A model generated the notes under the pieces. It ran no database searches. It was not told the origin of the DNA and worked only from the letters and a program-made list of their open reading frames with translations. Below, piece after piece: positions 27,657 to 64,000 of a stretch of DNA of 64,000 bases (positions are counted from its first letter, which is position 1; each line of letters opens with the position of its first letter). Source of the DNA: Diplonema papillatum (taxonomy: Eukaryota; Euglenozoa; Diplonemea; Diplonemida; Diplonemidae); the NCBI GenBank assembly GCA_030068145.1, contig JAPJBO010001013.1:1-64000 (forward strand), read 5' to 3'. A program made the position numbers and the translations under genes.

Positions 27657-30391
27657 ATGCAAATGAACGCCATGGCAAGCGTCGTCTGGTTGGCCGCTCT
27701 GATCGCTGTCGCGCAGGTGTGTTGAAAACAAAATATTAGTCAGTACGTGCCCGAGCCCAGCCCCAGAAGCTGGGAGGTAATAAGGCGAGGGTCACCCGCT
27801 TTTTGGGTGCCCGCTACTAGTGGCTTGACAAGCACAAAAATTTCGGCCCGATTTGATTCAATCCCTTTTCGCAGGCAACCGCGGCGCCAGACGCAGCTGC
27901 ATCCGAATCAGGGCGGACGGGAGTACCGATGCCATCCACTACGTCAATGCCCCCTACACACACACCACTCTCAACATCCCCTCGAACAGACGCATCTTCT
28001 GCTCCTGCGGGGCCCTCAGTATCTCCGCAAACGATGGCCCCAATGCCACCAATGCCATCAAACCCACCACTCTCAGCATCCCCTCGAACAGACATAACTT
28101 CTGCTCCCGCAGGTCCCTCAGTATCTCCGCGAACGATGGTCCCAATGCCACCACACCCACCACTTTCAGCATCCCCTCGAACAGACGCATCTTCTGCTCC
28201 TGCGGGGCCCTCAGTATCTCCGCGAACGATGGCCCCAATGCCACCAATGCCATCAAACCCACCACTCTCAGCATCCCCTCGAACGGACGCAACCTCTGCT
28301 CCCTCAGGTCCCTCAGTAGCCCCAATGCCACCAATGCCATCGCACCCACCACTCTCAGCAGCCCCTCGAACAGACGCATCTTCTGCACCCGCAGGTCCCT
28401 CAGTATCTCCGCGAACGATGGCCCCAAAGCCACCAATGCCATCGCACCCACCACTCTCAGCATCCCCTAGAACGGACGCGTCCTTTGCTCCCTCAGGTCC
28501 CTCAGTAGTCCCAATGCCAATGCCATCGCACCCACCACTTTCAGCATCCCCTCGAACGGACGCATCCTTTGCTCCCTCAGGTCCCTCAGTAGTCCCAATG
28601 CCACCAATGCCATCGCACCCACCACTTTCAGCATCCCCTCGAACGGACGCATCCTTTGCTCCCTCAGGTCCCTCAGTAGTCCCAATGCCAATGCCATCGC
28701 ACCCACCACTCTCAGCATCCCCTCGAACGGACGCATCCTTTGCTCCCTTGCCATCGCACCCACCACTCTCAGCATCCCCTCGAACGGACGCATCCTTTGC
28801 TCCCTCAGGTCCCTCAGTAGCCCCAATGCCACCAATGCCATCGCACCCATCCTTTGCTCCCTCAGGTCCCTCAGTAGTCCCAATGCCACCAATGCCATCG
28901 CACCCATCCTTTGCTCCCTCAGGTCCCTCAGTAGTCCCAATGCCACCAATGCCATCGCACCCACCACTCTCAGCATCCCCTCGAACGGACGCATCCTTTG
29001 CTCCCTCAGGTCCCTCAGTAGCCCCAATGCCACCAATGCCATCGCACCCATCCTTTGCTCCCTCAGGTCCCTCAGTAGTCCCAATGCCACCAATGCCATC
29101 GCACCCACCACTCTCAGCATCCCCTCGAACGGACGCATCCTTTGCTCCCTCAGGTCCCTCAGTAGCCCCAATGCCACCAATGCCATCGCACCCATCCTTT
29201 GCTCCCTCAGGTCCCTCAGTAGTCCCAATGCCACCAATGCCATCGCACCCACCACTCTCAGCATCCCCTCGAACGGACGCATCCTTTGCTCCCTCAGGTC
29301 CCTCAGTAGCCCCAATGCCACCAATGCCATCGCACCCATCCTTTGCTCCCTCAGGTCCCTCAGTAGTCCCAATGCCACCAATGCCATCGCACCCACCACT
29401 CTCAGCATCCCCTCGAACGGACGCATCCTTTGCTCCCTCAGGTCCCTCAGTAGCCCCAATGCCACCAATGCCATCGCACCCATCCTTTGCTCCCTCAGGT
29501 CCCTCAGTAGTCCCAATGCCACCAATGCCATCGCACCCACCACTCTCAGCATCCCCTCGAACGGACGCATCCTTTGCTCCCTCAGGTCCCTCAGTAGCCC
29601 CAATGCCACCAATGCCATCGCACCCATCCTTTGCTCCCTCAGGTCCCTCAGTAGTCCCAATGCCACCAATGCCATCGCACCCACCACTCTCAGCATCCCC
29701 TCGAACGGACGCATCCTTTGCTCCCTCAGGTCCCTCAGTAGCCCCAATGCCACCAATGCCATCGCACCCATCCTTTGCTCCCTCAGGTCCCTCAGTAGTC
29801 CCAATGCCACCAATGCCATCGCACCCACCACTCTCAGCATCCCCTCGAACGGACGCATCCTTTGCTCCCTCAGGTCCCTCAGTAGCCCCAATGCCACCAA
29901 TGCCATCGCACCCATCCTTTGCTCCCTCAGGTCCCTCAGTAGTCCCAATGCCAATGCCATCGCACCCACCACTCTCAGCATCCCCTCGAACGGACGCATC
30001 CTTTGCTCCCACAGTGTCTCCGCGGACGCCACCTAATTCGGCTGAACATTGTTATGATTTGATAATCGCCCCGTTTTGCCCTTCCGGATTCGAGCTTGCA
30101 GCGGACGACAAGCTGAACGCGTGCCGACAAGTACTGTGCGACACGAAGATGACGTTTGGAGTCGAAGTCAGCGGGAAAAACGCGAGGATGAAGTTGGAAG
30201 ACAACGAAGATGGTTGCCGCCTTGTCCCAACGGCTGCTGTGGTACCGAATGTTGTTTGCATACCACACGCATTTGCACCTGCTGCCAAGCAGAAAGATGG
30301 AGGAAGTAGACCCAGCAGCATGCTGCTCATTATCGCCATATTTGCGTTGCTGGTCGCTTTGATTGTCGGCATTGGGAGTGCCTGCGTATGA
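27657..30391 (+). CDS. Secreted proline-rich repeat protein 1 with Cys-rich domain and C-terminal membrane segment
   Basis: Two exons, 27657-27716 and 27875-30391. The 158-bp phase-0 intron starts GTGTGTTG and ends TTTTCGCAG. 858 residues. Exon 1 is a signal peptide of 20 codons (MQMNAMASVVWLAALIAVAQ), with cleavage likely a few residues into exon 2. Residues about 40-735 are Pro/Ser/Ala/Met-rich repeats (PLSASPRTDAS, APSGPSV, PMPPMPSHP), the 3' part arranged in 48-residue units. Then comes a domain of about 75 residues with six cysteines (from EHCYDLI to VVCIPHAF), shared with gene 2. Last is a hydrophobic segment (about 835-858) with no cytoplasmic tail, so either a membrane anchor or a GPI-type signal. 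Expected at the surface or in the wall as a mucin- or extensin-like protein. No catalytic motif is present. Confidence 0.8.
28960..29990 (+). repeat. 144-bp coding minisatellite in gene 1
   Basis: CAGCATCCCCTCGAACGGAC recurs with a period of exactly 144 bp (28971, 29115, 29259 and on) for about seven units that look nearly identical. Upstream, 27990-28960 holds shorter and more diverged relatives. The unit is a multiple of three, so copy-number change keeps the frame. Confidence 0.9.
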
Positions 30392-30827
30392 CAATTTGTC
30401 TTCTTCTTTTAGCATGCAGTTCTTCTTTTAGCACGCAGGTTTAGATTTGGATTCCAATTGTATTCCACCTGAACCCGTTTAGCATTTCCACTTCAGAGAA
30501 GAACACAAGTGTTCCATTTATGTATAATTATTCACTGCAGGGGACGGATGGTCGCAAGAAGAAGAGCGAACTCTTGAAACTGATCAAGGCAGGGATTCCC
30601 AGTACTGCATATTCCACTTATCCACTCGCAGCATACTATTTGGTGGTCCTCCCGTAAGGAATTTCCAGTACTGCCTCAATGTTTACACTTATCCACGCAT
30701 AGCATAGTATGCGGTGGTCCTCCCGTAGCATGTCCAAGCGTACTGGATCACTGTCATGTGCACACTTGTCATTACAGCTCGGCTACTAGAGGCCCCAACC
30801 AGTTGGAGCTTGTCTCCCCAGCAGCCT
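30392..30827. other. 3' flank of gene 1
   Basis: TTCTTCTTTTAGCA(T/C)GCAG is repeated at about 30402 and 30421. A duplication of about 70 bp follows (TTCCAGTACTGC at 30597 and 30663; GGTGGTCCTCCCGTA at 30642 and 30713). No gene was seen. Confidence 0.5.
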
Positions 30828-31230
30828 AGAAAGAAGAAGAAAAAGGCCGCACCTGGTCCAGGAACGTGACGGTCAACCACAGCTTGCAAAGCTTGAGTCA
30901 GAGGCAGCACAGTGCCACAACCCCGTCCGCTCTGCCCTGCGGCTGACCGTCTCGACGAGCTTGTGTTCAGCGCGAGCGCCAAGCCCCAAGGTGCGCCAAG
31001 CCTTGATGCTTTAGTTTGGGAAATCGGTAGCCACTTGACCGGTGGGCCCGTGGCTCTGCAGTACCGCCGATCACGTGAAGCTTGGCTCCCGTGTAGCACG
31101 CTTTCCCTGGTACCTTCCCCAGCAACCTAAAAAAAGAAAAGTCAGGCACGCAACCCCGGTGGACATAGCCAAGAGTCGGAGTTAAGCGTCGAAACTCTCG
31201 GGCATTTACCGCCGCAGCAGAACGACCACA
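30828..31230 (-). repeat. Dispersed repeat family H, copy 3, with trailing segment
   Basis: Full H unit (30828-31110) with a (GAA)n-rich start, plus the trailing segment (AAAAGTCAGGCACGCAACCC through GGAGTTAAGCGTCGAA) also found at 13015-13130. Confidence 0.75.
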
Positions 31231-31516
31231 CCCTACCCAATCCCACACACCCCCTAACGCGTTAGGGGGTCTCACAGCGTTTCACAACAGAGTGCATGAC
31301 GGAGCACCCGAAACGAGCAGCGCCTTTTCACTGTTTTCAAACCCCTTCAACTCTCCCTACTCAAGCCTCTGCGGTCTACCGGAGACCTTTAAATACCGAC
31401 AGGGGATTTGTGTACGTTGCAGATTTAGACCAACGGTATAAATCTTCAAACCGGGGTTGACCGGCAATGTTTTTCCTGTGTGGCTAAAATCACTATTTTC
31501 TATAATATAGGTGGAG
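31231..31516. other. Intergenic, nothing recognised
   Basis: Contains GTTGCAGATTTAGACCAACG (31418), related to the hairpin at 41352. GTTAGGGGGT is an accidental short palindrome. No gene was seen. Confidence 0.45.
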
Positions 31517-32786
31517 ACGATGCCAAAAAGGGGGGGGGGGGGGGGGGTTTGGGCAGATGTTTTCTGGTATAGTCAGATACTGGGCATGTGGGGTATAGGA
31601 CCCATACCCCCCCAGAAACCATGTTTTCGGGCCGATTTTGGGGTTCAATGCCCTCGGAGAACCTTTTTCTGAGCGCAAAACTCAGTTGTTGTGGACTTTG
31701 AGGCCCCAGGTAGGGTTACGACTGCACAATGGCTACGGCGGCAGCACCCATCCAGAACAGGAACTTAACTCTGTTCTCAGAATGCGTGACTCGTAAATGC
31801 GTTTCGTTCGAAGAATTGGCTCAAAAATTTGCAAGGCAAGACGCACACGAAGTACGATAGGTCACAGGGCTCCATGCGGAGACACTTTAGAGCGACGAGA
31901 GCCTTTCTGATGAAAGCTGCAGGAGTTGACCCGATTGCGCCCGGGGTCTCTGTACAGAGGGCGACCGACAAAGGTGACCCATGAGGCAGCAGGCATTCGA
32001 CGATCTCGTGGAGGCAACCACCGACGTCGTGGGTCACGGAAACACTGTCGTGCACAAGACGTTCGTCGCACAAATCCTTCTAGCACAGGCTGGTGGACGA
32101 AGAAGGCCAACTAACGGCAAAGGTGTCGTACACCACGTACCGCCAGCTACGTGGTGCCCGGTTCGAACACCTGGCCGGACGTGTGCGACACCTGCAGAAG
32201 GGAACACGATTAACCATCGCCTTCGTGAGGTTACCAGCAGCAAACTCACTTCTTTCGATCCGACAAGCCGATTTCTGCCAATAAAAGTTGCCAATACTGC
32301 CAGAAGAACCTGGGGTCAGCTTTTTTAACAACCAGGGGCCTCGCCTCCTTGATGATTGATTTGCGTTGGACGACAGGTGACTCGATCCAACTTGGGGAAC
32401 TGTTTTAGCTGGTGTACAGTGGGTTTCACACTGGATTTGCGGGTGTCACACTGGATTCCGCACTGGATTTTTGGATGTCAGTGGATTTCACGCTGGATTT
32501 GCGGGTGTGGCACACTGGATCTAGCAGGTGTGCCCACGCCCGACACTTTGGCCGCACAGTTAACACCCCCACACGATGCTGGAGTGCACCGTGCGGGGCC
32601 TCGAAACCCACAGAAACAGAGTTTTGCGCTCAGAAAAAGGTTCTCCGAGGGCATTTGGCCCCAAAACCGGCCCGAAAAAATGGTTTCTGGGGGGATATGG
32701 GTCCCATACCCCACATGCCCAGTATCTTACTATGCCATAAAACATCTGCCCAAACCCCCCCCCCCCCCCCCCTTTTGGCATCGTAC
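31517..32786. mobile_element. Non-autonomous inverted-repeat element with 18-G ends
   Basis: Arms of about 190 bp (31517-31707 and 32595-32786) are inverted copies of each other. Each begins at its outer end GATGCCAAAA, followed by a run of 18 G, then GGGCAGATGTTTT(C/A)TGG and GGGCATGTGGGGTAT. The 887-bp interior has no transposase; its only sizeable ORFs (up to 115 codons) are unrecognised, and 32425-32530 is a small tandem array of CTGGATTTGCGGGTGT words. Long arms and no gene suggest a MITE or Mutator-like derivative. Relatives of one arm lie at 21880-22090 and 48030-48195. Confidence 0.7.
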
Positions 32787-32790
32787 CATA

Positions 32791-33722
32791 TATTTTCCTC
32801 GGGGAAATAACTCTCCCGAGCCGGGAGGCGAGGGAGAAAAAAACCACTGAGGGGGAAAAAATGGCCCGAGGGCCACTGTCCCGGTATTTCCCCGAGGGAT
32901 GGTATTTTTTTACCGGCTGGCGGACTTTTATTCCCGAGTAGTAGTAAGAATGACGGCTGCCTGTTTCATCCGTTGGTCGCGCCTTGCCGGCATCAACAGA
33001 CGCCTCCATGAAGCCCTGAATGTCGTCAGGAGAGAAGGTGTTCGCGGTCTTCTTCTTGTGGCCAGTTTGCCACTTTTTCAGCAGGATCGGGATCTTGGGA
33101 ACTCGTTGCGAAGATTGATGTTCCACTCCGATGCAAGGCAGCTGGTCAGCATTGACTGGTACGACCACAAGGTGCTGGCCGCAAACCCATCCTCTTTCTT
33201 GTTTTCTGAAGTATCCCATCAAGTCCTTCTCCGTGGGGCGACGGGTCCTCTTTCCATTCTTGAATCTCCGGATCCCACAGTGCGCAAGGAAGCTGTCAAA
33301 CACCCATGTGTAGCGCTCCTTGCTAGCCTCCGGCAACAGCTCTTTGAAGGGTTCTGGAAACTCGCTTCGTGCTCGCTTCGGCATTTTGTTGTTTTTTTCG
33401 TCCTGAAGATGGGTTTTAGGGGTGGTTCTGCCTGGGGTTTCTCCTCCCAGGGTCTCATGCTATTGTACTTAGTCAGATTTAGAGTTCCAGGGAAAAAAAT
33501 TCCCTTATTTCCCTGCATCCTTGCTGTACGAGGAACGAAACGTCCGCCAGCCGGTAAAAATATATATTTTCCTCGGGGAAATAACAGGGCTTTTTTCCCC
33601 CGAAGTGGTTTTTTCTCCCGAGCCGGGAGGCGAGGGAGAAAAAACCACTGAGGGGGAAAAAATGGCCCGAGGGATGTTTTTCTCCCGAGCCGGGAGGCGA
33701 GGGAGAAAAACATCCCGAGGGC
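32791..33722 (-). mobile_element. Inverted-repeat element A carrying tyrosine-recombinase 5' half
   Basis: The core inverted repeat TTTACCGGCTGGCGGAC (about 32910-32926) returns inverted at 33541-33558. On both sides, moving outward, come the words CCTCGGGGAAATA, CCCGAGCCGGGAGGCGAGGG and CCACTGAGGGGGAAAAAA. The arms therefore extend well beyond the core and end near 32791 and 33722. The interior holds a minus-strand ORF start (33384) and its upstream region. The right arm also serves as the left arm of element B. Confidence 0.6.
32945..33384 (-). pseudogene. Crypton-like tyrosine recombinase, N-terminal part
   Basis: From the ATG at 33384 downward, about 146 codons read as the DNA-binding N-terminal half of a Crypton-type tyrosine recombinase: LLPEASKERYTWVFDSFLAH, TEKDLMGYFRKQ, then LLKKWQTGHKKKTANTFSPD. 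The pattern (helical core-binding domain, then a Lys-rich linker before the catalytic domain) is the family's. The frame then runs into the terminal repeat arm near 32945, so the catalytic domain with its Arg/His/Tyr residues is missing. Function is lost. The identification rests on pattern memory. Confidence 0.6.
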
Positions 33723-34465
33723 CACTGCCCCAGTATTTCCCCGAGGAATGGTATTTTTTTACCGGCTGGCGGACTTTTATTCCCGAGAACGCGTGCTGTT
33801 CATGACCTGGCTCGTGATGCGCTTCGCTGTGCTACCTTGAACGTGTTTCTGTGCTGTGTATGTCAGGGTGAACGGTGAAGAAATCGAAATAAGTGCATAG
33901 TTCTGTTAGAAGAAAATGATGACGTTCTTCAAATGATAGCATTCAGCGGAGAAGACAAACAGGCTCAGCAGAGCGGAAGCTCACTATTCTTATCGTTCTT
34001 GACCTCGACAACAATTCTTACAGTCACATTGACATCATTCTTGTTCTCGCTCACTTCTTTTGTAGACTTATTTGTGTCAGACACAGAGGGCTCGCTTTTG
34101 ACAGTGGTTTGCGTGGGGGCCTGAGCAACAACTGCACCCTGTGTTGGATGAATCATGTTTGCCATTGCGGTAACCGAGCGGTCTGTCTGGTCGATGTACC
34201 TTGCCGCGGTCTTTTCACACTTCCATCCAAAGTGTGTTTTCAACTGTTCCACAGATTTGTTGTTTTTTTTTCGTCCTGAAGATAGGTTTTAGTGGTGGTT
34301 CTGCTTGGGTTTGCTCCTCCCAGGGTCTCCTGCTATTGTACTTAGTCAGATTTTGAGTTCCAGGGAAAAAAATTCCCTTATTTCCCTGGTAGGGAAATAA
34401 CGGACCTTATTTCCCTGCAACTTTGCTGTACGAGGGAAGAAAAGTCCGCCAGCCGGTAAAAAGTA
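33640..34465 (-). mobile_element. Inverted-repeat element B carrying tyrosine-recombinase 3' end
   Basis: Bounded by TTTACCGGCTGGCGGACTTT (33758) and its inverse AAAGTCCGCCAGCCGGTAAA (34441). 34253-34390 is a near copy of 33385-33510, the region upstream of the ORF in element A (GTCAGATTT(A/T)GAGTTCCAGG). Element B thus has the same 5' region, but internal sequence has been deleted so that it joins directly to the recombinase C-terminus. Confidence 0.6.
33965..34252 (-). pseudogene. Crypton-like tyrosine recombinase, C-terminal part
   Basis: 95 codons on the minus strand begin LKTHFGWKCEKTAARYIDQT, which resembles the last conserved block of tyrosine recombinases, with the catalytic Tyr in ARYID. 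A Ser/Thr/Val-rich tail follows. The rest of the catalytic domain is absent. Its order relative to the N-terminal part at 33384 is wrong for a single minus-strand gene, so these are two separate deletion derivatives. Confidence 0.6.
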
Positions 34466-34734
34466 TTTTTCACAAGATTCGTGCATATCGCCAAGACTTG
34501 TGGAGCTGGAGCTGGGCAAGGAGCTCTTGACACGACGCTTTGTCGGAATCCACACTTGCTTTTGTCACCTATTGTGCAGTTTTTTGCCACAGGAGTGCAC
34601 CAGCAGTTGGCGGGAAACTTTTACTTTTTGGCGGGAAATCGTACTTTTTGGCGGGACGTAAAGTAACTTTATTTCCCGCAAACCGTTTTTTACCGTCCCG
34701 GGAACTATGGATCGATACATCGGGAGGAGGAAGA

Positions 34735-35012
34735 AGAAGAAAAATAAAAAACGAAAAAGAAAAACGCCGCACCTGGTCCAGGAACGTGACGGTCAACCAC
34801 AGCTTGCAAAGCATGAGTCGGAGGCAGCACAGTGCCACAACCCCGTCCGCTCTGCCCTGCGGCTGACCGTCTCGACGAGTTTGTGTTTCAGCGCGAGCGC
34901 CAAGCCCCGGTGCGCCAAGCCTTGATGCTTTAGCCACTCCCGTGGTTCTGCAGCACCGCCGAACACGTGAAGCTTGGCTTCCGTGTAGCAGGCTTTCCCT
35001 CTGGTACCATGA
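34735..35012 (-). repeat. Dispersed repeat family H, copy 4
   Basis: Same unit as 11515-11845 with an A-rich start (34725-34765) and a deletion in the middle (after GCCTTGATGCTTTAG). The inverted-repeat element at 35021 begins just after its end. Confidence 0.75.
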
Positions 35013-35020
35013 CCGGGGTC

Positions 35021-38329: not shown

Positions 38330-38915
<586 letters not shown>

Positions 38916-41275: not shown

Positions 41276-41325
<50 letters not shown>
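41276..41325. repeat. (CTA)n microsatellite
   Basis: About 16 units of ACT/CTA between GGCACATA and CCACCCCGG. The flanking word CACATACTACTAC is shared with 14.26 and 19.83 kb. Confidence 0.9.
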
Positions 41326-41330
<5 letters not shown>

Positions 41331-44648: not shown

Positions 44649-47600
44649 ATGCAAATGAACGCCATGTCAAGCGTCGTCTGGTTGGCCGCTCTGCTTGCTG
44701 TCGCGCAGGTGTGTTGACAGAATTGTTAGTCAGTACAGGATGAAGCCAGCCTCAGAAGCTGGGAGGTACAAAGTGAATGTCTCCCGTTTTTTTGCGGTCC
44801 ACACTACCAGTGACTTGACGAACGCAAGAATTGAGAATTTGGGCCCAATTAATCAAACCGTTTTCGCAGGCAACCGCGGCACCAGACGTAGCTGCTTCCG
44901 GGCCAGGGCGGACGGGAGTACCGATGGCATCCGCTACATCAGTGCCTTCATCAACTCGACCGCACGGAACTTCTGCTCCAGTTCCGCTAACAACTGCGAC
45001 CCCGATGACATCCCCTACATCAGTGCCTGTAGCAACTCGACCGCACGGTACTTATGTTCCCTCGATGACATCAGTGCCTACTTATGGTCCCTCAATGACA
45101 TCAGTGCCTGCATCCTCCAGAACCCCATTGCCAGGGTCCGGAACTCCTGCTCCGCCTCGACCGACCGGAACTCCTGCTCCGCCTCTACCGACCGGAACTC
45201 CTGCTCCGCCGACCGGAACTCCTGCTCCGCCTCGACCGACCGGAACTCCTGCTCCGCCGACCGGAACTCCTGCTCCGCCGACCGGAACTCCTGTTCCGCC
45301 GACCGGAACTCCTGCTCCGCCGACCGGAACTCCTGCTCCGCCGACCGGAACTCCTGCTCCGCCGACCGGAACTCCTGCTCCGCCGACCGGAACTCCTGCT
45401 CCGCCGACCGGAACTCCTGTTCCGCCGACCGGAACTCCTGCTCCGCCGACCGGAACTCCTGCTCCGCCGACCGGAACTCCTGCTCCGCCGACCGGAACTC
45501 CTGCTCCGCCGACCGGAACTCCTGCTCCGCCGACCGGAACTCCTGCTCCGCCGACCGGAACTCCTGCTCCGCCGACCGGAACTCCTGCTCCGCCGACCGG
45601 AACTCCTGCTCCGCCGACCGGAACTCCTGCTCCGCCGACCGGAACTCCTGCTCCGCCGACCGGAACTCCTGCTCCGCCGACCGGAACTCCTGCTCCGCCG
45701 ACCGGAACTCCTGCTCCGCCGACCGGAACTCCTGCTCCGCCGACCGGAACTCCTGCTCCGCCGACCGGAACTCCTGCTCCGCCGACCGGAACTCCTGCTC
45801 CGCCGACCGGAACTCCTGCTCCGCCGACCGGAACTCCTGCTCCGCCGACCGGAACTCCTGCTCCGCCGACCGGAACTCCTGCTCCGCCGACCGGAACTCC
45901 TGCTCCGCCGACCGGAACTCCTGCTCCGCCGACCGGAACTCCTGCTCCGCCGACCGGAACTCCTGCTCCGCCGACCGGAACTCCTGCTCCGCCGACCGGA
46001 ACTCCTGCTCCGCCGACCGGAACTCCTGCTCCGCCGACCGGAACTCCTGCTCCGCCGACCGGAACTCCTGCTCCGCCGACCGGAACTCCTGCTCCGCCGA
46101 CCGGAACTCCTGCTCCGCCGACCGGAACTCCTGCTCCGCCGACCGGAACTCCTGCTCCGCCGACCGGAACTCCTGCTCCGCCGACCGGAACTCCTGCTCC
46201 GCCGACCGGAACTCCTGCTCCGCCGACCGGAACTCCTGCTCCGCCGACCGGAACTCCTGCTCCGCCGACCGGAACTCCTGCTCCGCCGACCGGAACTCCT
46301 GCTCCGCCGACCGGAACTCCTGCTCCGCCGACCGGAACTCCTGCTCCGCCGACCGGAACTCCTGCTCCGCCGACCGGAACTCCTGCTCCGCCGACCGGAA
46401 CTCCTGCTCCGCCGACCGGAACTCCTGCTCCGCCGACCGGAACTCCTGCTCCGCCGACCGGAACTCCTGCTCCGCCGACCGGAACTCCTGCTCCGCCGAC
46501 CGGAACTCCTGCTCCGCCGACCGGAACTCCTGCTCCGCCGACCGGAACTCCTGCTCCGCCGACCGGAACTCCTGCTCCGCCTCGACCGACCGGAACTCCT
46601 GCTCCGCCGACCGGAACTCCTGCTCCGCCGACCGGAACTCCTGCTCCGCCGACCGGAACTCCTGCTCCGCCGACCGGAACTCCTGCTCCGCCGACCGGAA
46701 CTCCTGCTCCGCCGACCGGAACTCCTGCTCCGCCGACCGGAACTCCTGCTCCGCCGACCGGAACTCCTGCTCCGCCGACCGGAACTCCTGCTCCGCCGAC
46801 CGGAACTCCTGCTCCGCCGACCGGAACTCCTGCTCCGCCGACCGGAACTCCTGCTCCGCCGACCGGAACTCCTGTTCCGCCGACCGGAACTCCTGCTCCG
46901 CCGACCGGAACTCCTGCTCCGCCGACCGGAACTCCTGCTCCGCCGACCGGAACTCCTGCTCCGCCGACCGGAACTCCTGCTCCGCCGACCGGAACTCCTG
47001 CTCCGCCGACCGGAACTCCTGCTCCGCCGACCGGAACTCCTGTTCCGCCGACCGGAACTCCTGCTCCGCCGACCGGAACTCCTGTTCCGCCTCGACCGAC
47101 CGGAACTCCTGCTCCGCCTCGACCGACCGGAACTCCTGCTCCGCCTCTACCGACCGGAACTCCTGTTCCGCCTCTACCGACCGGAACTCCTGCTCCGCCT
47201 CGACCGACCGGAACTCCTGCTCCGCCGACCGGAACTCCTGTTCCGCTTCGACCGACCGGAACTCCTGCTGCCCCCCCAAATCCGGCAGACCATTGCTCTT
47301 CTTTAATAGTCGCCTCGTCTTGCCCATCCGGATACGATCTCGCAATGAATGACAAGCTTTACGCGTGCGAACAAATTATGTGCTCCAAGATGCCGCCTGG
47401 GGACGCTGCAAGCGGGAGTGACGCACGAATGAAGTTTGAAAACAACGGCAATGGCTGCAGCCTTGTTCCGACGACTGTGGTGCTGTCGAAGGTTATTTGT
47501 ATACCGCACGCATTTGCGCCGGCAGCCAATGATGATGAAGGAAGTGGGTCTAACCACTTGCTGCTCCTTATCGCCATCATTGTGCTGGTGGCCACATCGG

Positions 47601-47761
47601 TTGTCGGCATTGGGAGTGCCTGCGCGTGCGTATGCCAGCTTTTTTCGAGACTGGAGGTCCTATGCACATGCTATGTGAATAGCCTCTGTTCGAGCCAACC
47701 TCACTTTCCCAACCAAAACTACGCATTTCTTTCAACAATTATGAAAGTGTACTGTTTTTAG
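44649..47761 (+). CDS. Secreted proline-rich repeat protein 2 (PPTGTPA array)
   Basis: Exons 44649-44708 and 44870-47761 flank a 161-bp phase-0 intron (GTGTGTTG to TTTTCGCAG). 983 residues. Exon 1 encodes the family signal peptide (MQMNAMSSVVWLAALLAVAQ). Residues about 40-115 are Thr/Ser/Pro-rich (TSVP...). About 119-819 consist of some 100 copies of PPTGTPA, with occasional PPRPTGTPA, PPLPTGTPV and PTGTPV variants. The six-cysteine domain (about 827-900, from DHCSSLI to VICIPHAF) and a membrane segment (about 915-942) follow. Unlike gene 1 there is a tail of about 40 residues rich in Cys and aromatics. A rigid, Thr-rich, probably O-glycosylated stalk at the cell surface or wall is the likely role. 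Confidence 0.8.
45165..47265 (+). repeat. 21-bp coding minisatellite in gene 2
   Basis: The unit CCGACCGGAACTCCTGCTCCG is a 21-mer encoding seven residues; it varies mainly as GCT/GTT and by insertion of CT(C/A)GA or CTACCGA-type codons. All six frames are free of stops, which creates false ORFs on both strands. Confidence 0.95.
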
Positions 47762-49630: not shown

Positions 49631-49639
49631 GGGGGGGGG

Positions 49640-52530: not shown

Positions 52531-52583
52531 CTTGAAAGGCGCATGAGAGCGTGACTGGTCACAAGGAGTGTTGGCAGCGGTTC

Positions 52584-54667
52584 ATGGAGAGCATGAGAGC
52601 GGAAATCGGAGGGAAGAAAAGTGCCGACGGTGATCCTGTCAATGACATAACAGGCGTTGTTGATAGAATTATGAATCCTCAGCACTTCGTTCATCGTGTG
52701 AATGATCTGGTCTACATCATTCGCAGTCATCGTTCTCTCGACGACTTCTCCTCTCTCGCTGAACATGAAGCTCAAAGCTGCGAGCCAATCCGCCAATCCA
52801 TGAGGCACCGGGATACTCTGACATCGGCTACGACACGCAACATACTGTTACGCAGCCTTTTCGCCCTCTCGAAAGAGCGCGTGTTGCGTAAGGTCAAGGG
52901 AAGCAGCTTTTTGTCCCTCATGACCGACGAGTCCCAGGACCGCGCGAAAAACGCCAATTTCGGCTTTTTCGTCAAATTGCTGACCGAGGACCACACCCCG
53001 GAGGAGGTGTTTTGGGAAATACGTCCGATAAAGTGTGCTCCAACCGGGCGTAATATTGCCAAAAGACGTTTGCGGGGCTGAACTTGTTCCCATCTTGCGT
53101 GGGGGTTAGTACCGACGGCTGCGCTGCCATGAGCGGCCTGTATGAGGGCGCCTGTTCGCATGTGCGTCGCTTCATGTGCCCTTTTATAATTTGGGTATGG
53201 TGTTTGGCGCACCTTTTCAACCTCGCATGTGTGAGTGCCGGAGACGACATTCCTGTGGTTGTTTCCTGTTTCTCGTTCGTTAAAAATGTGTTTGTCTACT
53301 TTCGGCGCGGAAGGGGGGACACACAGGCCAAGGTGCGTGCATTCAAAGAAGCCGAAGAGGATGTCAGGCGCATGCATGAGGTCGCGGATAACTTTTTCTT
53401 TTTCCGCTCTCTCGAGTTGGTGGAAGTGGGAGACACTCGTTGGGTGTCACATTTTCGAGCTGCATCCACACTCGTGACCACGCTGAAGACATGCATGCAC
53501 GCCGTGTTTTCCTTGTCTTGTCACGGTGAAGGGAACGCGAAAGAGCAGGCACAGGCATTGCGCACTCAACTTAATAATTCGGTTCTCGTTGCATTGTTTC
53601 TTCTTTCAGTTGCATCTCCTATCCTGTCACGCTTCAGTGCCCAGTTGCAACGTGCGGACTTGTGCTGGGCAGAGGTTGGGTACCTAAAGGGGTTCTATGT
53701 GAACGAGCTCAAGACCCTAATGGATAGCCCAACAAAGTTTCCTGAGTACAGCTCCTGCCATTTGCAAATCAACTGGGCGAAGCCTGCCGACTGGGGAACA
53801 CCATCCGTCACACACGAGTTTGTGGAGCAGTTTCACATGCAAATAGGAAAAACGTTCATCGACTCTCTTATCAAGGCAGTGGACAAGAGGCTGAGCGGGT
53901 TGCCGGTCCTGCAGGGCCTTGGGGTATTTGACCCCCGTGGTCGCCACTTCAAGCGGGCTTTTCAAGACGTTTCCCTTCATGGAACGACACCGGAAGTTGT
54001 TGCCCGCATCCAACCGGGAAGCCTAGAGGCGCTCGAGGGAATGCTCGAAGCTGCCCTGGACCACTTCGGGACCGAAAAAACAATGGCCGTTGAAAACGCT
54101 GCAGGAACGGTGGCTGAAACCGAGACCCCCGCGTTTTTTGACGAGGGTACGATAAGCGACACCCGCACGGAGTTTCCTTCTGCCCTTGTGGAGTTTGCTC
54201 GAATACAGGCAAGTGCCCCCAAGACTTCGTTCACAGAATACTGCAAGGAATTCCTGAACAACCAGGCATTGCGATTACAGTACCCCCACACTACCCGCCT
54301 ACTTCGCATTGCCCTTGTGTTGCCCCTCGGAACAGCATCTGTTGAACGCTTGTTTTCAAAGGTCAAGCTCCTCCGAACCTACCTTCGGAACAGGCTTGCA
54401 AACAAAACTGTCCGCATGTGCCTGTTTGTGTCTTACAACGTCCCGAAGATCACAGAGGAGTTCCTCGATTTGCTTCTGAGGGAGTACCTTGCGACTCCTC
54501 CAAGGCCCGAAGGTAACGAGAGCGAAGAGGACGATGACAATATTTCGTACACCAATGTGCGAAGAACACGACTGCAATTTGCGAAGATTTCGGTCTACTT
54601 CGAAGCGGCGAAGGCCATTCTGGCTTGGAGATCGCGCAGGGAGCAGAATCCTGTGTCTTTGGTCTAG
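52584..54667 (+). pseudogene. hAT transposase, one frameshift, truncated N-terminus
   Basis: The frame from 52536 reads HESVTGHKEC just before the first ATG (52584), which resembles the end of a BED or TTF zinc finger; its first part is replaced by the 42-bp repeat or lies in an unseen exon. The RNase H-like core has MTDES (Asp at 52926), GVSTDGCAAMSG (Asp at 53113) and TRW. The C-terminal hAT dimerisation domain contains TASVERLFSKVKLLRTYLRN, with the catalytic Glu at 54344. Near 53070-53080 the frame changes by one base: the first part ends at a TGA while the continuation (FAGLNLFPSC) is in another phase. With that exception the roughly 690 codons look well preserved, so inactivation is recent, unless splicing or a sequencing error explains it. 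Confidence 0.85.
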
Positions 54668-56731: not shown

Positions 56732-56861
56732 ATTCATCTGGGGAATCAACCGCAGTACCAGGGATTCCGGTCAACGGCAGATCCTGCTGTTGCTTACCAC
56801 CGCGACACTGGAGGGTTGAGGCCGGAGAGGAGGCAGAGGCAAAGACATACAACGCTGGCAG
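56732..56861 (+). CDS. Putative internal exon, copy b
   Basis: 130 bp, duplicate of 56404-56530 with one in-frame 3-bp insertion (FRSTADP for FRSADS) and a few substitutions. Same acceptor- and donor-like borders. If both are used, the transcript would contain the exon twice without a frame change. Confidence 0.35.
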
Positions 56862-57045
56862 GTGAGCCTCCTATGCTCTATTTCATTTTTGCCTGACCCT
56901 ATGTACTGATTTTCAGTAGGTATTTAGCTCCAAGGCAAAAGAGCTGCGTACGCCCTGCTCGTGAAGTGGGGGAAAAATATACGAGCCGTGGTGCCATCCG
57001 AGGTAGTATATTTTTTCCCCTCTTGGCTTGTCTTGTGTAGGGCAG

Positions 57046-57537
57046 TCAGCCTTCACCAACGTCAACGTTTGAGTACCTTGTGTGGCTTATCAGCAGCTGG
57101 CTTGGAACCCAACCGTCCGTCGCAGTCAGCCTGCGCAATGCACTTCCACTTGTTCGTCCAGATCGAAGGCCAACTTTACTCCACTGCATCTCCGCTGAGC
57201 GCCGCTTGGGCCCGTGCTGGTGTGAAAAACAATTTTCTATTTTTGCGATAAGCACTGTGCCAGTTCTGGACTGTGTTCCGTGCCTCTTTCTTTTGAGATC
57301 GAAGTGCGCAAAAAGCAATTTCCGTTTGTATTCAGTAAACAACTGAGCATCGCAATCACGTAGTTTCGCGAGGTTTTCTGTTTCACTTTCTTCGGTTTCC
57401 TCTTCTTCATTCAAAGCATCCTCATGCCGGCTTCCTTCGTTCTCGGGATTGGGGGCAGGGGCCCGGGCTAACAGTACCAACGCAGAAACCATGAACCAAC
57501 ACACCCTGTCGGAGGATGTGGTCATGCATTTGCTCAA
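57046..57537 (-). CDS. Hypothetical acidic/basic protein
   Basis: 163 codons on the minus strand. An acidic patch (LNEEEETEESETENLAKLRD) is followed by a basic stretch (YKRKLLFAHFDLKRKRHG). Plausible as an exon of a nuclear protein, but no domain is recognised and no splice context is clear. Confidence 0.25.
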   Translation of the reverse strand: MSKCMTTSSDRVCWFMVSALVLLARAPAPNPENEGSRHEDALNEEEETEESETENLAKLRDCDAQLFTEYKRKLLFAHFDLKRKRHGTQSRTGTVLIAKIENCFSHQHGPKRRSAEMQWSKVGLRSGRTSGSALRRLTATDGWVPSQLLISHTRYSNVDVGEG

Positions 57538-58449
57538 TTTGTGTGCTCGTACTTTTTGGGAATGTGAGTAGTTCTGTTGGGACCGGTCGGCGCCTTTCCG
57601 TGCTCATACTCTTTTGAGGATTTTTGCGAACGTGCGTACTCTGCCGACCCTCCGCAACCCCCCTCGACCCTCCGCCGATCCACAACCTTCCGCCGGCCTT
57701 CCCTCCCATGCACACCCGGAGCCCCTGGACACCTTGACACAATAATCCGGACACGAATTTATATATATATTTTTTTCACTAATGCAATAAGTCTTTGGGC
57801 AACAACCAGGAACACACTGGTAGGTGAGCAGCGACACCTCCCGAAAATGAGCCAAGGGCGAAGGACGTATCTGCGCTGCTGCGGCAGTTGCCCGGTGGCA
57901 ACCCCACACGCAGAACGCGGGGAAGGGGAACGTGTTTTCCCAACTACATTGCAGCCCCTCCACCGTAGCATCCGAGGAAGGTGCAAACATGGAAGGTGCT
58001 ACGGTAGCCATGCACGGGTCTTGGGCGCGTGCCTCGTGCAGGGATGGCGGTATTGGCGCCGGCATCCGCCGCTTCCCTTGTGGCGCTTTGGGTCGATGGT
58101 CGCAGCTTGCGTCTCGACTTCGGTGTCGCTTCGGGCGTCCCCGGGGGCGAAGGCCCGCGCTTCCGTCCCTTCTGCTGGTCGCTCGCGTTGTAGCACCCGG
58201 CGGTGGTGATGCCCCCGCTTGCAGCACTGTCCTGGCAGCCGACTCCGCACATCGGCATATCGTGCTGCAAGCACCCGTGGTGTGAGTTCCTGCAGCATTC
58301 GTCAATCATCGTGCACGTCCCGCCCACTGCGTCATCCTGTGCTTCTGCAATACTTCACAGCGAGGCCGTCCCCTGCCGCGTGGTGTGCCTCGGCAGCAGC
58401 GCGCTACCGACGCTTGCCGACGCTTGCACTCTTCGCATTTCACTTTGTG
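57538..58449. other. Overlapping ORFs, none recognised
   Basis: Three minus-strand frames and two plus-strand frames are open across 57930-58310, probably because of composition. One minus frame has RPRGRPKRHR (AT-hook-like), and another has ECCRNSHHGCLQHDMPMC, a Cys/His cluster. No choice can be supported. Confidence 0.3.
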
Positions 58450-58755
58450 ATGTCCCGTGCACACTCTCTTGGTGGACTTGTTTTGCTTGCATTCTTATGT
58501 GCTCGTGGAGCAGAAGCTCACGCCCAGCCTTCTACGGGCTCGAACACCGCCCCTTCCTCCCTACTCCTTCGTTTCCCTCACGTGTTCCACATGGAAGTCT
58601 CTCTAGCTCGAAACCCAAACAACAGCGAACATCAAAGAACTCACGTAAGTCTCTCTAGCTCGAAACCCAAACAACAGCGAACATCAAAGAACTCACGTAA
58701 AATAAATAACGCTAGTAAAAGGGCGGGCCCGAACGTGGCCCAACGACATATCTAG
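58450..58755 (+). CDS. Small secreted protein candidate
   Basis: 101 codons starting MSRAHSLGGLVLLAFLCARG, a good signal peptide with likely cleavage near AEAHA. The rest is Ser/Pro/Asn-rich, without a recognised domain, and includes a 17-residue tandem duplicate produced by a DNA duplication of about 52 bp (58595-58700). The related copy at 40516 keeps the hydrophobic segment and the AHAQPSTGSNTAPSS stretch but has no matching start. An intron after RFPH (GTGTTCC) is conceivable. Confidence 0.35.
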   Translation: MSRAHSLGGLVLLAFLCARGAEAHAQPSTGSNTAPSSLLLRFPHVFHMEVSLARNPNNSEHQRTHVSLSSSKPKQQRTSKNSRKINNASKRAGPNVAQRHI

Positions 58756-59175
58756 CTCTCTCTCTCCCTGTAGCCAGCCGCCGCGCTTTTCTTGGAAAGC
58801 ATCCATGGGCCAGCCCCTATAATAGAACACGCATCATTTTCTTGAAAATGATGCTCAACTGTAGGGAATAGTCGACTATGTCTTGAGTTTGTGCTAACCA
58901 CGATTGTGGGAGTCGGGGGTTAACATGCGAGAAAAAGCGCGGAATTCATGCACCTTTTCTCCAGATGGGACTCGCAGGTCGAAGCCCACATTCCAAACCC
59001 TTCTGCACTATGACAGCATGCACACCTTCTGGTCTCTGTTTGCTTCAGCATGTCGTGGCGTGTGGGAGGCTGGGTTCGTGTGAGAGAAGGTGCAGTAGGG
59101 GCGGTCTGACAAGGTCCTGGCGATCCCAACTGCAGAACCCAGGGGATTAGTTTATTGCGTTTTTCCGACGATTTG
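58481..59175 (+). repeat. Segmental duplication K, copy 2
   Basis: Direct repeat of 40516-41180, including GTTGACTAG/GTCGACTA, GAGAAAAAGCGCGGAATTCA and GTAGGGGCGGTCTGACAAGG. Small deletions and one local tandem duplication separate the copies. Confidence 0.8.
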
Positions 59176-59189
59176 GTTTATTTTATTTT

Positions 59190-59352
59190 TAGCCGTGTGA
59201 GGAAACTGAACCGCCCAAGTAGGACCTTCTGATCATGATCATTTGCCAAATTTTCCACCTGAAACCACGTCCAGGATTTGGGCTTGCGGTCAACGAAAAC
59301 TCTAGTTTCCCTTTTCTACTTTCTCCTACTCTCGCGGTGTACGGTTTCCCCC
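59190..59352 (+). repeat. Dispersed repeat family A, copy 3
   Basis: Same unit as 3570-3745 and 37190-37365, with a deletion of about 12 bp after GATTTGGGCT. Confidence 0.75.
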
Positions 59353-59519
59353 GTATACAAGCTTACTCCGACCACTGCACCCTCTGCCGACACTCGCTAG
59401 CCGTCGACGCTCATGACGGCAGCCCTCCTCCTGAAAAACCGCAGCTGCAAAGACCATCCCGTTACAGGAAGCCCCTTGTTTCCGGCCCTTTGTCCCTTTG
59501 CTTCGCCTAACTCGTCCTC

Positions 59520-59790
59520 AGACACTCAGGTTTCGCGCTGATCCGCAACCAGATTGCTGAGACACGGTTGTAGGGGCCGCTCCCCGTGACAGATTCGCCT
59601 CTGCTCTGGTAGCACGGGTGTGACGAGCTACGAACAGCCGCCTGACAAACTAGACTCACACCGCTGTGTGTGCCTGCAGGCACTCAGGTTCTGCGCTGAT
59701 AGTGGTCCGCAACAGCTATGCGTCCGTGGGTTACAGAACCGATCATATATCCATTCCAAGCATGTTCTTGCAATCCCCCCGGATTGTGGT
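59520..59790 (+). repeat. Dispersed repeat family C, copy 6
   Basis: Diverged and internally rearranged copy (GCTGAGACACGGTTGTAGGG through GGTTACAGAACCG). It ends at the CTTGCAATCCCCCCGGATTG border shared with copy 4, then continues with TTTCAGACCCGAA as there. Confidence 0.7.
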
Positions 59791-59879
59791 TTTCAGACCC
59801 GAACAAGGAGAACCCATTTGCAGGGGAAGGTGATGAGGTGAGCATGGTCTCTGGCTTGATTCATCCGAAGATCCGTCAA

Positions 59880-60116
59880 GTGAAATGCCACTGCATACCA
59901 GCCGCTAGTAGCTTTACCTGCCGGCGCCGCAGTCTAGAGAATGGATGTTGATGCGCATGACGTCATGCCTCAAGAAAGAACGAACCTGGAGATATGACAA
60001 GCAACGCAGCTTCTTTTTTGTCTAGGCGGATGTATTCAACAAAATTCCTCCTGATTAGGTCAGTTCCAAATAAAATCAGCTGCTCAAGTTTCGCATCGTC
60101 GCACGTGGAGAGCGAA
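59880..60116 (+). promoter_or_regulatory. Leader region of secreted-repeat gene 3
   Basis: Aligns with 27395-27656 and in part with 43200-43245 plus 44589-44648. It holds one copy of the unit that is expanded 42-fold upstream of gene 2 (about 60021-60052). Together with the repeat C copy before it, the layout matches gene 2. Confidence 0.5.
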
Positions 60117-63100
60117 ATGCATATGAACGCCATGCCAAGCGTCGTCTGGTTGACCGCTCTGATCGCTGTAGCGCAGGTGTGTTGAACAAGATTGTTAGTC
60201 AGTACATGCCGGAGCCAAGCCTCAGAAGCTGGGAGGTAAAAAGGCGCGGGGGTCACCCGCTTTTTGGGTCTCCGCTACTGGTGGCTTGACAAGCACAAAA
60301 AATGAGAATTTGGGCCCGATTTGACTCAACCCCTTTTCGCAGGCAACCACGGCGCAAGAGGCAGCTGCATCCGAATCAGGGCGGACGGGAGTACCGGTGC
60401 CATCCACTACGTCAATGCCCCAAACACACACACCACTCTCATCATCCCCTCGAACAGACGCATCTTCTGCTCCTGCGAGGCCCTCAGTATCTCCGCGAAC
60501 GATGGCCCCAATGCCACCAATGCCATCGCACCCACCACTCTCAGCATCGCCTAGAACAGACGCATCTTCTGCTCCCGTAGGTCCCTCAGTATCTCCGCGA
60601 ACGATGGACCCAATGCCACCAATGATGCCATCGCACGCACCACTTTCAGCATCCCCTCGAACAGACGCATCTTCTGCTCCTGCGGGACCCTCAGTATCTC
60701 CGCGAACGATGGCACCACTCTCAGCATCGCCTAGAACAGACGCATCTTTTGCTCCCGTAGGTCCCTCAGTATCTCCGCGAACGATGGACCCAATGCCACC
60801 AATGATGCCATCGCACGCACCACTTTCAGCATCCCCTCGAACAGACGCATCTTCTGCTCCTGCGGGGCCCTCAGTATCTCCGCGAACGATGGCCCCAATG
60901 CCACCAATGCCATCGCAACCACCACTTTCAGCATCCCCTCGAACAGACGCATCTTCTGCTCCCGTAGGTCCCTCAGTATCTCCGCGAACGATGGCCCCAA
61001 TGCCACCAATGCCATCGCAACCACCACTGTCAGCATCCCCTCGAACAGACGCATCTTCTGCTCCTGCGGGGCCCTCAGTATCTCCGCGAACGATGGCCCC
61101 AATGCCACCAATGCCATCGCAACCACCACTGTCAGCATCCCCTCGAACAGACGCATCTTCTGCTCCTGCGGGTCCCTCAGTATCTCCGCGAACGATGGCC
61201 CCAATGCCACCAATGCCATCGCACCCACCACTCTCAGCATCCCCTCGAACAGACGCATCTTCTGCTCCTGCGGGGCCCTCAGTATCTCCGCGAACGATGG
61301 CCCCAATGCCACCAATGCCATCGCAACCACCACTGTCAGCATCCCCTCGAACAGACGCATCTTCTGCTCCTGCGGGGCCCTCAGTATCTCCGCGAACGAT
61401 GGCCCCAACGGCACCAATGCCATCGCACCCACCACTCTCAGCATCCCCTCGAACAGACGCATCTTCTGCTCCTGCGGGGCCCTCAGTATCTCCGCGAACG
61501 ATGGCCCCAATGCCACCAATGCCATCGCAACCACCACTGTCAGCATCCCCTCGAACAGACGCATCTTCTGCTCCTGCGGGGCCCTCAGTATCTCCGCGAA
61601 CGATGGCCCCAATGCCACCAATGCCATCGCAACCACCACTTTCAGCATCCCCTCGAACAGACGCATCTTCTGCTCCTGCGGGGCCCTCAGTATCTCCGCG
61701 AACGATGGCCCCAATGCCACCAATGCCATCGCACGCACCACTTTCAGCATCCCCTCGAACAGACGCATCTTCTGCTCCTGCGGGGCCCTCAGTATCTCCG
61801 CGAACGATAGACTCAATGCCACCAATGATGCCATCGCACGCACCACTTTCAGCATCCCCTCGAACAGACGCATCTTCTGCTCCTGCGGGGCCCTCAGTAT
61901 CTCCGCGAACGATGGCCCCAATGCCACCAATGCCATCGCACCCACCACTGTCAGCATCCCCTCGAACAGACGCATCTTCTGCTCCTGCGGGGCCCTCAGT
62001 ATCTCCGCGAACGATGGCCCCAATGCCACCAATGCCATCGCACCCACCACTTTCAGCATCCCCTCGAACAGACGCATCTTCTGCTCCTGCGGGGCCCTCA
62101 GTATCTCCGCGAACGATGGCCCCAATGCCACCAATGCCATCGCACCCACCACTTTCAGCATCCCCTCGAACAGACGCATCTTCTGCTCCTGCGGGGCCCT
62201 CAGTATCTCCGCGAACGATGGACCCAATGCCACCAATGCCATCGCAACCACCACTGTCAGCATCCCCTCGAACAGACGCATCTTCTGCTCCCGTAGGTCC
62301 CTCAGTATCTCCGCGAACGATGGCCCCAACGGCACCAATGCCATCGCACCCACCACTCTCAGCATCCCCTCGAACAGACGCATCTTCTGCTCCTGCGGGG
62401 CCCTCAGTATCTCCGCGAACGATGGCCCCAATGCCACCAATGCCATCGCAACCACCACTGTCAGCATCCCCACGAACAGACGCATCTTCTGCTCCCGTAG
62501 GTCCCTCAGTATCTCCGCGAACGATGGCCCCAACGGCACCAATGCCATCGCAACCACCACTGTCAGCATCCCCTCGAACAGACGCATCTTCTGCTCCTGC
62601 GGGGCCCTCAGTATCTCCGCGAACGATGGCCCCAATGCCACCAATGCCATCGCACGCACCACTTTCAGCATCCCCTCGAACAGACGCATCTTCTGCTCCT
62701 GCGGGGCCCTCAGTATCTCCGCGAACGATGGCCCCAATGCCACCAATGCCATCGCACGCACCACTTTCAGCATCCCCTCGAACAGACGCATCTTCTGCTC
62801 CTGCGGGGCCCTCAGTATCTCCGCGAACGATAGACTCAATGCCACCAATGATGCCATCGCACGCACCACTTTCAGCATCCCCTCGAACAGACGCATCTTC
62901 TGCTCCTGCGGGGCCCTCAGTATCTCCGCGAACGATGGCCCCAATGCCACCAATGCCATCGCAACCACCACTTTCAGCATCCCCTCGAACAGACGCATCT
63001 TCTGCTCCTGCGGGGCCCTCAGTATCTCCGCGAACGATGGCCCCAATGCCACCAATGCCATCGCACCCACCACTGTCAGCATCCCCTCGAACAGACGCAT

Positions 63101-64000
63101 CTTCTGCTCCTGCGGGGCCCTCAGTATCTCCGCGAACGATGGCCCCAATGCCACCAATGCCATCGCAACCACCACTGTCAGCATCCCCTCGAACAGACGC
63201 ATCTTCTGCTCCTGCGGGGCCCTCAGTATCTCCGCGAACGATGGCCCCAATGCCACCAATGCCATCGCACCCACCACTGTCAGCATCGCCTAGAACAGAC
63301 GCATCTTCTGCTCCCGTAGGTCCCTCAGTATCTCCGCGAACGATAGACTCAATGCCACCAATGATGCCATCGCACGCACCACTTTCAGCATCCCCTCGAA
63401 CAGACGCATCTTCTGCTCCTGCGGGGCCCTCAGTATCTCCGCGAACGATGGCCCCAATGCCACCAATGCCATCGCAACCACCACTGTCAGCATCCCCTCG
63501 AACAGACGCATCTTCTGCTCCCGTAGGTCCCTCAGTATCTCCGCGAACGATGGCCCCAATGCCACCAATGATGCCATCGCACGCACCACTTTCAGCATCC
63601 CCTCGAACAGACGCATCTTCTGCTCCTGCGGGGCCCTCAGTATCTCCGCGAACGATGGCCCCAACGGCACCAATGCCATCGCAACCACCACTGTCAGCAT
63701 CCCCTCGAACAGACGCATCTTCTGCTCCCGTAGGTCCCTCAGTATCTCCGCGAACGATGGCCCCAATGCCACCAATGATGCCATCGCACGCACCACTTTC
63801 AGCATCCCCTCGAACAGACGCATCTTCTGCTCCTGCGGGGCCCTCAGTATCTCCGCGAACGATGGCCCCAATGCCACCAATGCCATCGCAACCACCACTG
63901 TCAGCATCCCCTCGAACAGACGCATCTTCTGCTCCTGCGGGGCCCTCAGTATCTCCGCGAACGATGGACTCAATGCCACCAATGATGCCATCGCACGCAC
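60117..64000 (+). CDS. Secreted proline-rich repeat protein 3 (3' end outside window)
   Basis: Exon 1 60117-60176 encodes the family signal peptide (MHMNAMPSVVWLTALIAVAQ). The phase-0 intron 60177-60342 starts GTGTGTTG and ends TTTTCGCAG. Exon 2 is open from 60343 to the window edge, 1219 codons. After a linker (ATTAQEAAASESGRTGVPVP) it consists of a 33-residue repeat, with 34-residue variants carrying an extra Met: PPLSASPRTDASSAPAGPSV, then SPRTMAPMPPMPSQ. This is the same repeat language as gene 1 but a different higher-order unit. The Cys-rich domain and membrane segment expected from paralogs would lie beyond 64000. The longer minus-strand ORFs here are shadows of the repeat. Confidence 0.75.

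Follow-up and report, generated by a model that had tools for sequence, protein, structure and literature searches.

We analyzed the first 64,000 bases (hereafter, the window) of contig JAPJBO010001013.1 (C1013; 78,347 bases), part of the 271-Mb assembly GCA_030068145.1 deposited as Diplonema papillatum, which was also the target of all genome-wide searches. On the forward strand we found three related genes, the third continuing beyond the window, and a relic of a fourth copy; the predicted products have conserved ends around Pro-rich repeat cores. The divergent 18S rRNA had pointed to a euglenozoan. The assignment to diplonemids rests on the spliced leader, a 29-mer with 584 exact copies in the assembly (310 forward and 274 reverse), while the backward control gave none on either strand; the species name Diplonema (Paradiplonema) papillatum is the most likely one. 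Introns were predicted from the DNA (GT-AG, phase 0), spliced-leader acceptors are putative TTAG sites, and the signal peptides, the A-Q-A cleavage motif, and the helix or glycosylphosphatidylinositol (GPI) calls were made by eye. The parts of the genome paper that deal with transcripts describe the spliced leader, GT-AG introns, and 5' untranslated regions (UTRs) of ca. 70 bp as normal in this organism (PMC10161547). The features of the cluster are as follows.

19528 to 19585, forward: relic, a copy of exon 1 with a 2-bp deletion (frameshift), then the beginning of the intron, with no exon 2 seen downstream
27579, forward: gene 1, candidate spliced-leader acceptor (TTAG), giving a 77-nt 5' UTR
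27657 to 27716, forward: gene 1, exon 1, signal peptide MQMNAMASVVWLAALIAVAQ with an A-Q-A cleavage motif by eye
27717 to 27874, forward: gene 1, predicted intron, phase 0, GT-AG, 158 bp
27875 to 30391, forward: gene 1, exon 2 to the stop; whole product 858 aa
27959 to 30014, forward: gene 1, repeat core of PLSASPRTDAS and PMPPMPS units
30050 to 30259, forward: gene 1, six-Cys domain, from first to last Cys
30320 to 30388, forward: gene 1, C-terminal hydrophobic stretch of 23 aa up to the stop, putative GPI signal or membrane helix
43244 to 44587, forward: 42 perfect 32-bp repeats immediately 5' of the gene 2 acceptor
44593, forward: gene 2, candidate spliced-leader acceptor (TTAG), giving a 55-nt 5' UTR
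44649 to 44708, forward: gene 2, exon 1 (signal peptide)
44709 to 44869, forward: gene 2, predicted intron, phase 0, GT-AG, 161 bp
44870 to 47761, forward: gene 2, exon 2 to the stop; whole product 983 aa
45161 to 47246, forward: gene 2, repeat core of (PPTGTPA)n and PPRPTGTPA variants; Tandem Repeats Finder counts 97 copies of 21 bp
47294 to 47500, forward: gene 2, six-Cys domain, from first to last Cys
47558 to 47632, forward: gene 2, hydrophobic stretch; 42 more residues after it form a Cys-rich tail
60058, forward: gene 3, candidate spliced-leader acceptor (TTAG), giving a 58-nt 5' UTR
60117 to 60176, forward: gene 3, exon 1 (signal peptide)
60177 to 60342, forward: gene 3, predicted intron, phase 0, GT-AG, 166 bp
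60343 to 64000, forward: gene 3, exon 2 with a 102/105-bp repeat core, which goes on past the window to about contig position 73,950

As proposed in a preliminary description of this DNA, the genes starting at 27657, 44649, and 60117 share the 20-codon signal exon, the phase-0 GT-AG intron, and upstream sequence, and the relic at 19528, frameshifted because 2 bp are missing inside exon 1, brings the copies of this exon to four. DNA identity between genes 1 and 2 was 95.0% in exon 1, 78.3% in the intron, 88.9% in the first 54 bp of exon 2, 74.5% in the domain region, and 42.8% in the 200 bp past the stop. No further paralog with the same signal exon appeared: when the first 300 bp of gene 1 were searched against the whole genome at the DNA level, there were four candidates, all of which matched and all of which lie on C1013. 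The candidate acceptors of the three genes and of the relic (24 nt before its ATG) are found in a pyrimidine-rich context, although the choice is provisional because other AGs lie nearer to the ATG. Each of the 32-bp units in front of gene 2 contains a pyrimidine tract and an AG and could therefore supply many extra spliced-leader acceptors. One diverged copy of this unit also precedes gene 3.

The cores of genes 1 and 3, both built from PLSASPRTDAS/PMPPMPS-type units, differ from that of gene 2, for which the earlier estimate of about 100 PPTGTPA units agrees with the 99 GGAACTCCTG anchors that we counted. These anchors are spaced by 21 bp (88 cases) or 27 bp (10 cases), so that all 98 spacings are multiples of 3. 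The same was true of 17/17 anchor spacings in gene 1, where the unit steps were 57, 84, 87, 93, 102, 141, 144, and 201 bp, and of 66/66 in the part of gene 3 that precedes an insert described below (steps of 102, 105, and 75 bp). Pro and Ser make up 31% and 20% of the gene 1 core and 27% and 21% of the gene 3 core before the insert, and Pro and Thr 41% and 27% of the gene 2 core. Since the arrays open long frames on the other strand as well (an antisense frame of 1,258 aa spans 60222 to 63998), the length of an open reading frame (ORF) is weak evidence of coding, and the in-frame anchor spacing is the better one. Distinct variants among the 53 units of 102 bp in gene 3 comprised 8 synonymous changes, 9 nonsynonymous ones, and no stops, out of 92, 206, and 8 possible changes, respectively, a mild excess of silent change as judged from raw counts.

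Behind the core, genes 1 and 2 share, as had been described, a six-Cys domain and a hydrophobic C-terminal end. All six Cys align (C-x8-C-x14-C-x4-C-x24/25-C-x13-C) at a protein identity of 57%, and the ratio of nonsynonymous to synonymous divergence (dN/dS) in the domain region was 0.26/0.53 by NG86. No named family was recovered, in agreement with the preliminary description: the search of the domain and the C-terminal region against Pfam returned nothing above threshold, and that against the PDB sequences returned a single match to a chlorophyll-binding protein (E value of 0.22) that we read as chance, with none in the profile search. Elicitins (PF00964) had come to mind, as they have six Cys, a C3-x4-C4 step, and a GC-x-L-V-P-T stretch in common with the domain, with other Cys spacing. 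Membership in that family was rejected, given that there was no Pfam match even at an E value of 10 and none in PDB by sequence.

Followed beyond the window, the frame of gene 3 stays open to contig position 67321 (2,346 aa) and ends inside a 938-bp insert at contig positions 67239 to 68176, which has inverted ends CAGTGTGGCTCCTG and a 7-bp target duplication. This is a dispersed element, with at least 81 matches from the best 40 of 1,003 candidates and copies that are 94 to 100% identical. The array restarts after the insert and ends in a frameshifted six-Cys domain from contig position 74037. Because the insert and the frameshifts break it, gene 3 is a pseudogene. The end of gene 3 is repeated on a second contig, C539. 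Of the 16 sites that differ over 71350 to 78347, 14 are in the array, the units of which differ between the two contigs, and the other 2 are in the 4.3 kb that start with the domain. To the left of the dispersed element, which is partly missing there, unrelated low-complexity sequence replaces the array on C539. This copy is probably the same locus assembled twice, since passages of the genome paper report the strain as haploid, and gene replacement as working in it (PMC10161547); a true recombinant copy is possible.

With gene 3 and the relic broken, and with transposase frames and dispersed repeats all around, the cluster might be a decaying, hardly expressed remnant in a transposon-rich region, its arrays being minisatellites that stay open by chance of the unit. 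The long frames that the units open on both strands and a dN/dS not far below 1 would fit this explanation. We consider it unlikely, as every anchor spacing found in genes 1 and 2 and in the part of gene 3 that precedes the insert is divisible by 3 despite several unit lengths, exon 1 is better conserved than the intron, and all six Cys were kept between genes 1 and 2, though the probability of this happening by chance at their level of identity is ca. 0.03.

The six-Cys domain, which the preliminary description knew only from this locus, proved not to be special to the trio. The domain of gene 1, used as a query against its own genome, gave ten candidates, all of them matches: the three genes themselves, the duplicate on C539, and six places with weak scores. 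Among the latter, the Cys pattern was recognized by eye on C242 (E value of 0.004), C199, C24 (two domains), and C154, while C480 carries one stop. The C154 domain in turn yielded 239 candidates and at least 150 scored matches, which are spread over 14 contigs and lie in open frames as long as 8,224 aa. The figure of 150 is not a gene count because some of these contigs resemble repeats of each other. C853, C278, C595, and C687 have open frames of 6,196 to 8,224 aa with many six-Cys domains, and the 5 kb of C853 that were read encode a signal-like peptide and then six-Cys domains alternating with LVIVD propellers (PF08309; E value of 3.5e-9) and Pro-rich linkers.

The likeness between the locus and the giant-ORF domains might be convergence of small disulfide-rich domains, the trio then being a private family. 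Single pairwise scores are indeed weak (E values of 0.004 to 1.1), as could be expected under convergence. With the domain of gene 2 as the query (E value up to 10), there were 46 matches. Four of them belong to the trio or to the duplicate on C539; of the other 42, 38 fell on contigs found with the C154 query, at E values of 0.007 to 4.2, each weak alone. In a profile-profile comparison, the three locus domains matched 21 giant-ORF domains with a score of 42.1 (E value of 4.7e-8; probability of 94.9), reached by 0 of 100 column shuffles that kept the Cys (maximum of 21.9) and by 0 of 100 full shuffles (maximum of 17.0). A hidden Markov model (HMM) built from the 21 giant-ORF domains, with no locus sequence in it, ranked the trio first among contig ORFs of at least 60 aa, with E values of 4.5e-7 (gene 3), 9.1e-7 (gene 2), and 1.6e-4 (gene 1), the next ORF being at 0.039.

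Single-sequence shuffles with the Cys kept were used as a control for this HMM. None reached the score of gene 1 (0/200), gene 2 (0/199), the first and second domains of C24 (0/200 each), or C199 (0/199). For C242 (4/199), the third domain of C24 (3/197), and C1405 (12/199), the last a contig described below, some shuffles did, so that these three do not beat the control, which is what convergence would predict. The third domain of C24 sits in one ORF with the first and second. Gene 1 and gene 2 lying above every scored shuffle, the absence of any profile-profile control at the observed score, the reciprocal match between C242 and gene 1 (E value of 0.0017), and the reach of the gene 2 query into giant-ORF contigs leave convergence, in our judgment, quite improbable. 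Genes 1 and 2 show both the C[PD]-x(10-14)-C-x4-C...C...C spacing and the profile similarity that characterize the family. Judging by these comparisons, the locus domain belongs, as a putative branch, to a large unnamed family of this genome, mostly seen in giant LVIVD-propeller ORFs. A three-row domain profile run over prokaryote and virus collections, in scans that reach close relatives only, gave 118 and 95 pattern matches, respectively, none of which was confirmed. On C242, repeated C-G-M-Q-V-V-S-S-A-C modules, with no Pfam match above threshold, precede the six-Cys domain and a membrane helix.

Comparable plans appeared at other loci. C1405 has 24 PVE units of the PPVEAPMT type, then a domain that is related but shows four of the six Cys, and then a stretch that looks like a membrane helix; it resembles the third domain of C24 with an E value of 2.2e-10 when the helix is included and of 0.098 at genome scale when it is not. 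A 125-aa stretch of C1405 recurs on C1835 and C1951, and its helix block is common to C186, C2393, C2728, and C54 (E values of 1.9e-7 to 4.7e-7). On C186 (34001 to 35500), long arrays of N-V-T-T-P-D and N-G-T-A-P sequons lead to the helix with no six-Cys domain before it, making the product a candidate for a densely N-glycosylated surface protein; C54 holds a shorter version of this plan, also without the domain. Genes 1 to 3 thus share a domain family with C1405, which shares its helix with C186 and C54, and C-terminal blocks are reused behind at least four repeat types, with no block common to all. The idea of conserved ends around replaceable cores holds for genes 1 and 3 versus gene 2 and, in looser forms, extends to C1405, C186, and C54. 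The second and last Cys were lost together in C1405, hinting that they pair with each other, which is a guess.

Our preferred interpretation, to which we give a probability of ca. 0.6, is that genes 1 and 2, and gene 3 before its breakage, encode mucin-like anchored surface glycoproteins whose stalks turn over in frame and which carry a membrane-proximal six-Cys module. The order read from the sequence is a signal exon, a Pro/Ser- or Pro/Thr-rich core of ca. 700 to 2,300 residues, the six-Cys domain, and a hydrophobic C terminus, and several features typical of mucin-like proteins are there: a signal peptide (by eye), Pro/Ser/Thr-rich tandem repeats, and a C-terminal anchor (by eye). The mRNA would receive the spliced leader just 5' of the gene, and cleavage of the signal peptide would take place near A-Q-A, where the exons join. 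The core would form an extended, probably O-glycosylated stalk pointing outward, with the six-Cys domain folded through disulfides beside the membrane; its place between stalk and membrane makes this domain a likelier candidate for a base or cap than for an adhesin at the tip. The hydrophobic end may be a GPI signal or a single helix: gene 1 stops right after it, as a GPI signal would, and gene 2 runs 42 residues further. Core diversity would come from tandem arrays that grow and shrink in frame and start afresh from new units, both ends being held by selection that looks weak, and the same lineage would place the module family between LVIVD propellers in giant proteins of secreted type.

Proteins with Pro/Thr/Ser repeats are often matrix proteins. 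The products might accordingly be secreted into an extracellular matrix, mucilage, or a feeding apparatus instead of being stable surface proteins, and the lack of a cytoplasmic tail in gene 1 would suit such a role. Against secretion, the hydrophobic C-terminal end was kept in genes 1 and 2, and C24, C242, C199, and C1405 have a membrane-helix-like stretch after the domain, followed on C242 by a basic tail; we regard it as rather improbable.

Several observations weigh against anchored surface glycoproteins. One of the three genes, gene 3, is broken, and purifying selection is weak or unproved because dN/dS in the domain region of genes 1 and 2 was 0.30/0.37 by YN00 and that of the N-terminal parts of genes 1 and 3 was above 1 (0.083/0.035, with few changes). 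AlphaFold models of the two window domains alone had a mean predicted local distance difference test (pLDDT) score of 51. The cores of genes 1 to 3 contain no N-glycosylation sequon, and the O-glycosylation that we infer for them is deduced from composition alone. The link of C1405, with just four Cys, to the family depends mainly on its likeness to C24. Finally, we do not claim that the cores of genes 1 and 2 have one origin, as their local score of 27 was reached by 4/500 base shuffles and 20/500 codon shuffles. Because shared ancestry of these cores is not demonstrable, a core that turned over is not distinguishable from one that was newly captured.

Trypanosoma cruzi MASP and TcMUC proteins, from the same phylum and likewise from a spliced-leader organism, have a variable core between conserved ends, and MASP is not known to carry a six-Cys domain. 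Constant ends around a variable core are thus an already known kind of design, and the sections of the literature on MASP describe a conserved N-terminal signal and C-terminal region, as in the genes studied here, in a large T. cruzi-specific family whose C-terminal region may be a GPI-addition signal (PMC4897614). Unlike MASP, the present genes come in three copies, have an intron after the signal exon and a six-Cys domain, and belong to a free-living host. The suggestion of variable surface antigens found no backing, as the DNA search gave four copies of the signal exon, two of them in intact genes, at one locus, the host is described as a free-living predator (PMC10161547), and neither switching nor a variant store was seen. 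Comparable too are the bodonins of the free-living euglenozoan Bodo saltans, which the passages devoted to them present as repetitive Ser/Thr/Asn-rich, predicted glycosylated surface proteins that were speculated to serve prey attachment (PMC4728078); the parallel is functional only. Canonical bodonins are given there as averaging seven transmembrane helices plus an intracellular domain (PMC4728078), whereas genes 1 and 2 have a single hydrophobic C-terminal stretch, by eye, and the six-Cys domain, and we do not count them as bodonins. The LVIVD-repeat propeller proteins are comparable in that a giant ORF of this genome has the six-Cys family between its propellers. The window genes differ from them in having repeat stalks, and no propeller was seen in their translations.

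The remainder of the region holds other repeats and mobile elements. A fragment of 18S rRNA at 27042 to 27298 (147 to 153 bits by cmscan), a 169-base part of which is 98% identical to copies repeating at 7.63-kb steps elsewhere, is in line with published accounts of rRNA pieces scattered through this genome. At 17462 to 18826, a 298-bp unit that includes a 2Fe-2S ferredoxin-like stretch (PF00111) occurs in 4.7 copies (98% alike), a repeated partial gene that resembles the repeat-bounded genes of which passages of the genome paper speak (PMC10161547). Long and partial piggyBac-type transposase frames (PF13843) lie at 23109 to 25781 and 616 to 1491, respectively; piggyBac is not named in the transposon passage of that paper (PMC10161547). 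Two overlapping open frames at 52536 to 54664 include one, the second, with a hAT dimerization domain (PF05699), the first having no Pfam family. There are also 40 perfect CAT triplets at 38468 to 38587 and 17 perfect TAC triplets at 41276 to 41326.

A role in the cell coat or in contact with prey or substrate is likely for these proteins, coat or prey contact being the likeliest because the organism, free-living, is described as a predator in parts of the genome paper (PMC10161547). A cell-membrane cluster of P. papillatum enriched in signal peptide and GPI predictions is mentioned in sections of a second study (PMC12697944). In the main text of the former, the words LVIVD, propeller, lectin, mucin, and cysteine do not occur, nor do propeller, cysteine-rich, and mucin in the latter. 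Among the matches listed in our literature search, which left subscription papers and supplements outside, none had a title or abstract dealing with a coat of repeat proteins on the surface of diplonemids. Within the literature searched, the following are new: the six-Cys module with its several architectures, the occurrence of the plan in a free-living lineage that is sister to kinetoplastids, and how large the LVIVD proteins with this module are.

We see about even odds that diplonemids own an undescribed extracellular six-Cys module, mixed freely with Pro-rich stalks built from several unrelated kinds of repeat, with Cys domains three in a row, and with LVIVD propellers in ORFs of up to 8,224 aa. 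Diplonemids and kinetoplastids are sister groups, and it is the coats of the latter that define trypanosome biology. If the products are surface-exposed, they would be the main coat or prey-capture toolkit peculiar to this lineage, consisting of one disulfide module and fast-changing arrays, a free-living parallel to the kinetoplastid surface families. The module, together with the list of genes with like ends and different stalks, offers a direct route to tagging and testing the coat of P. papillatum and lets one ask whether the plan of conserved ends and a replaceable core is older than parasitism.

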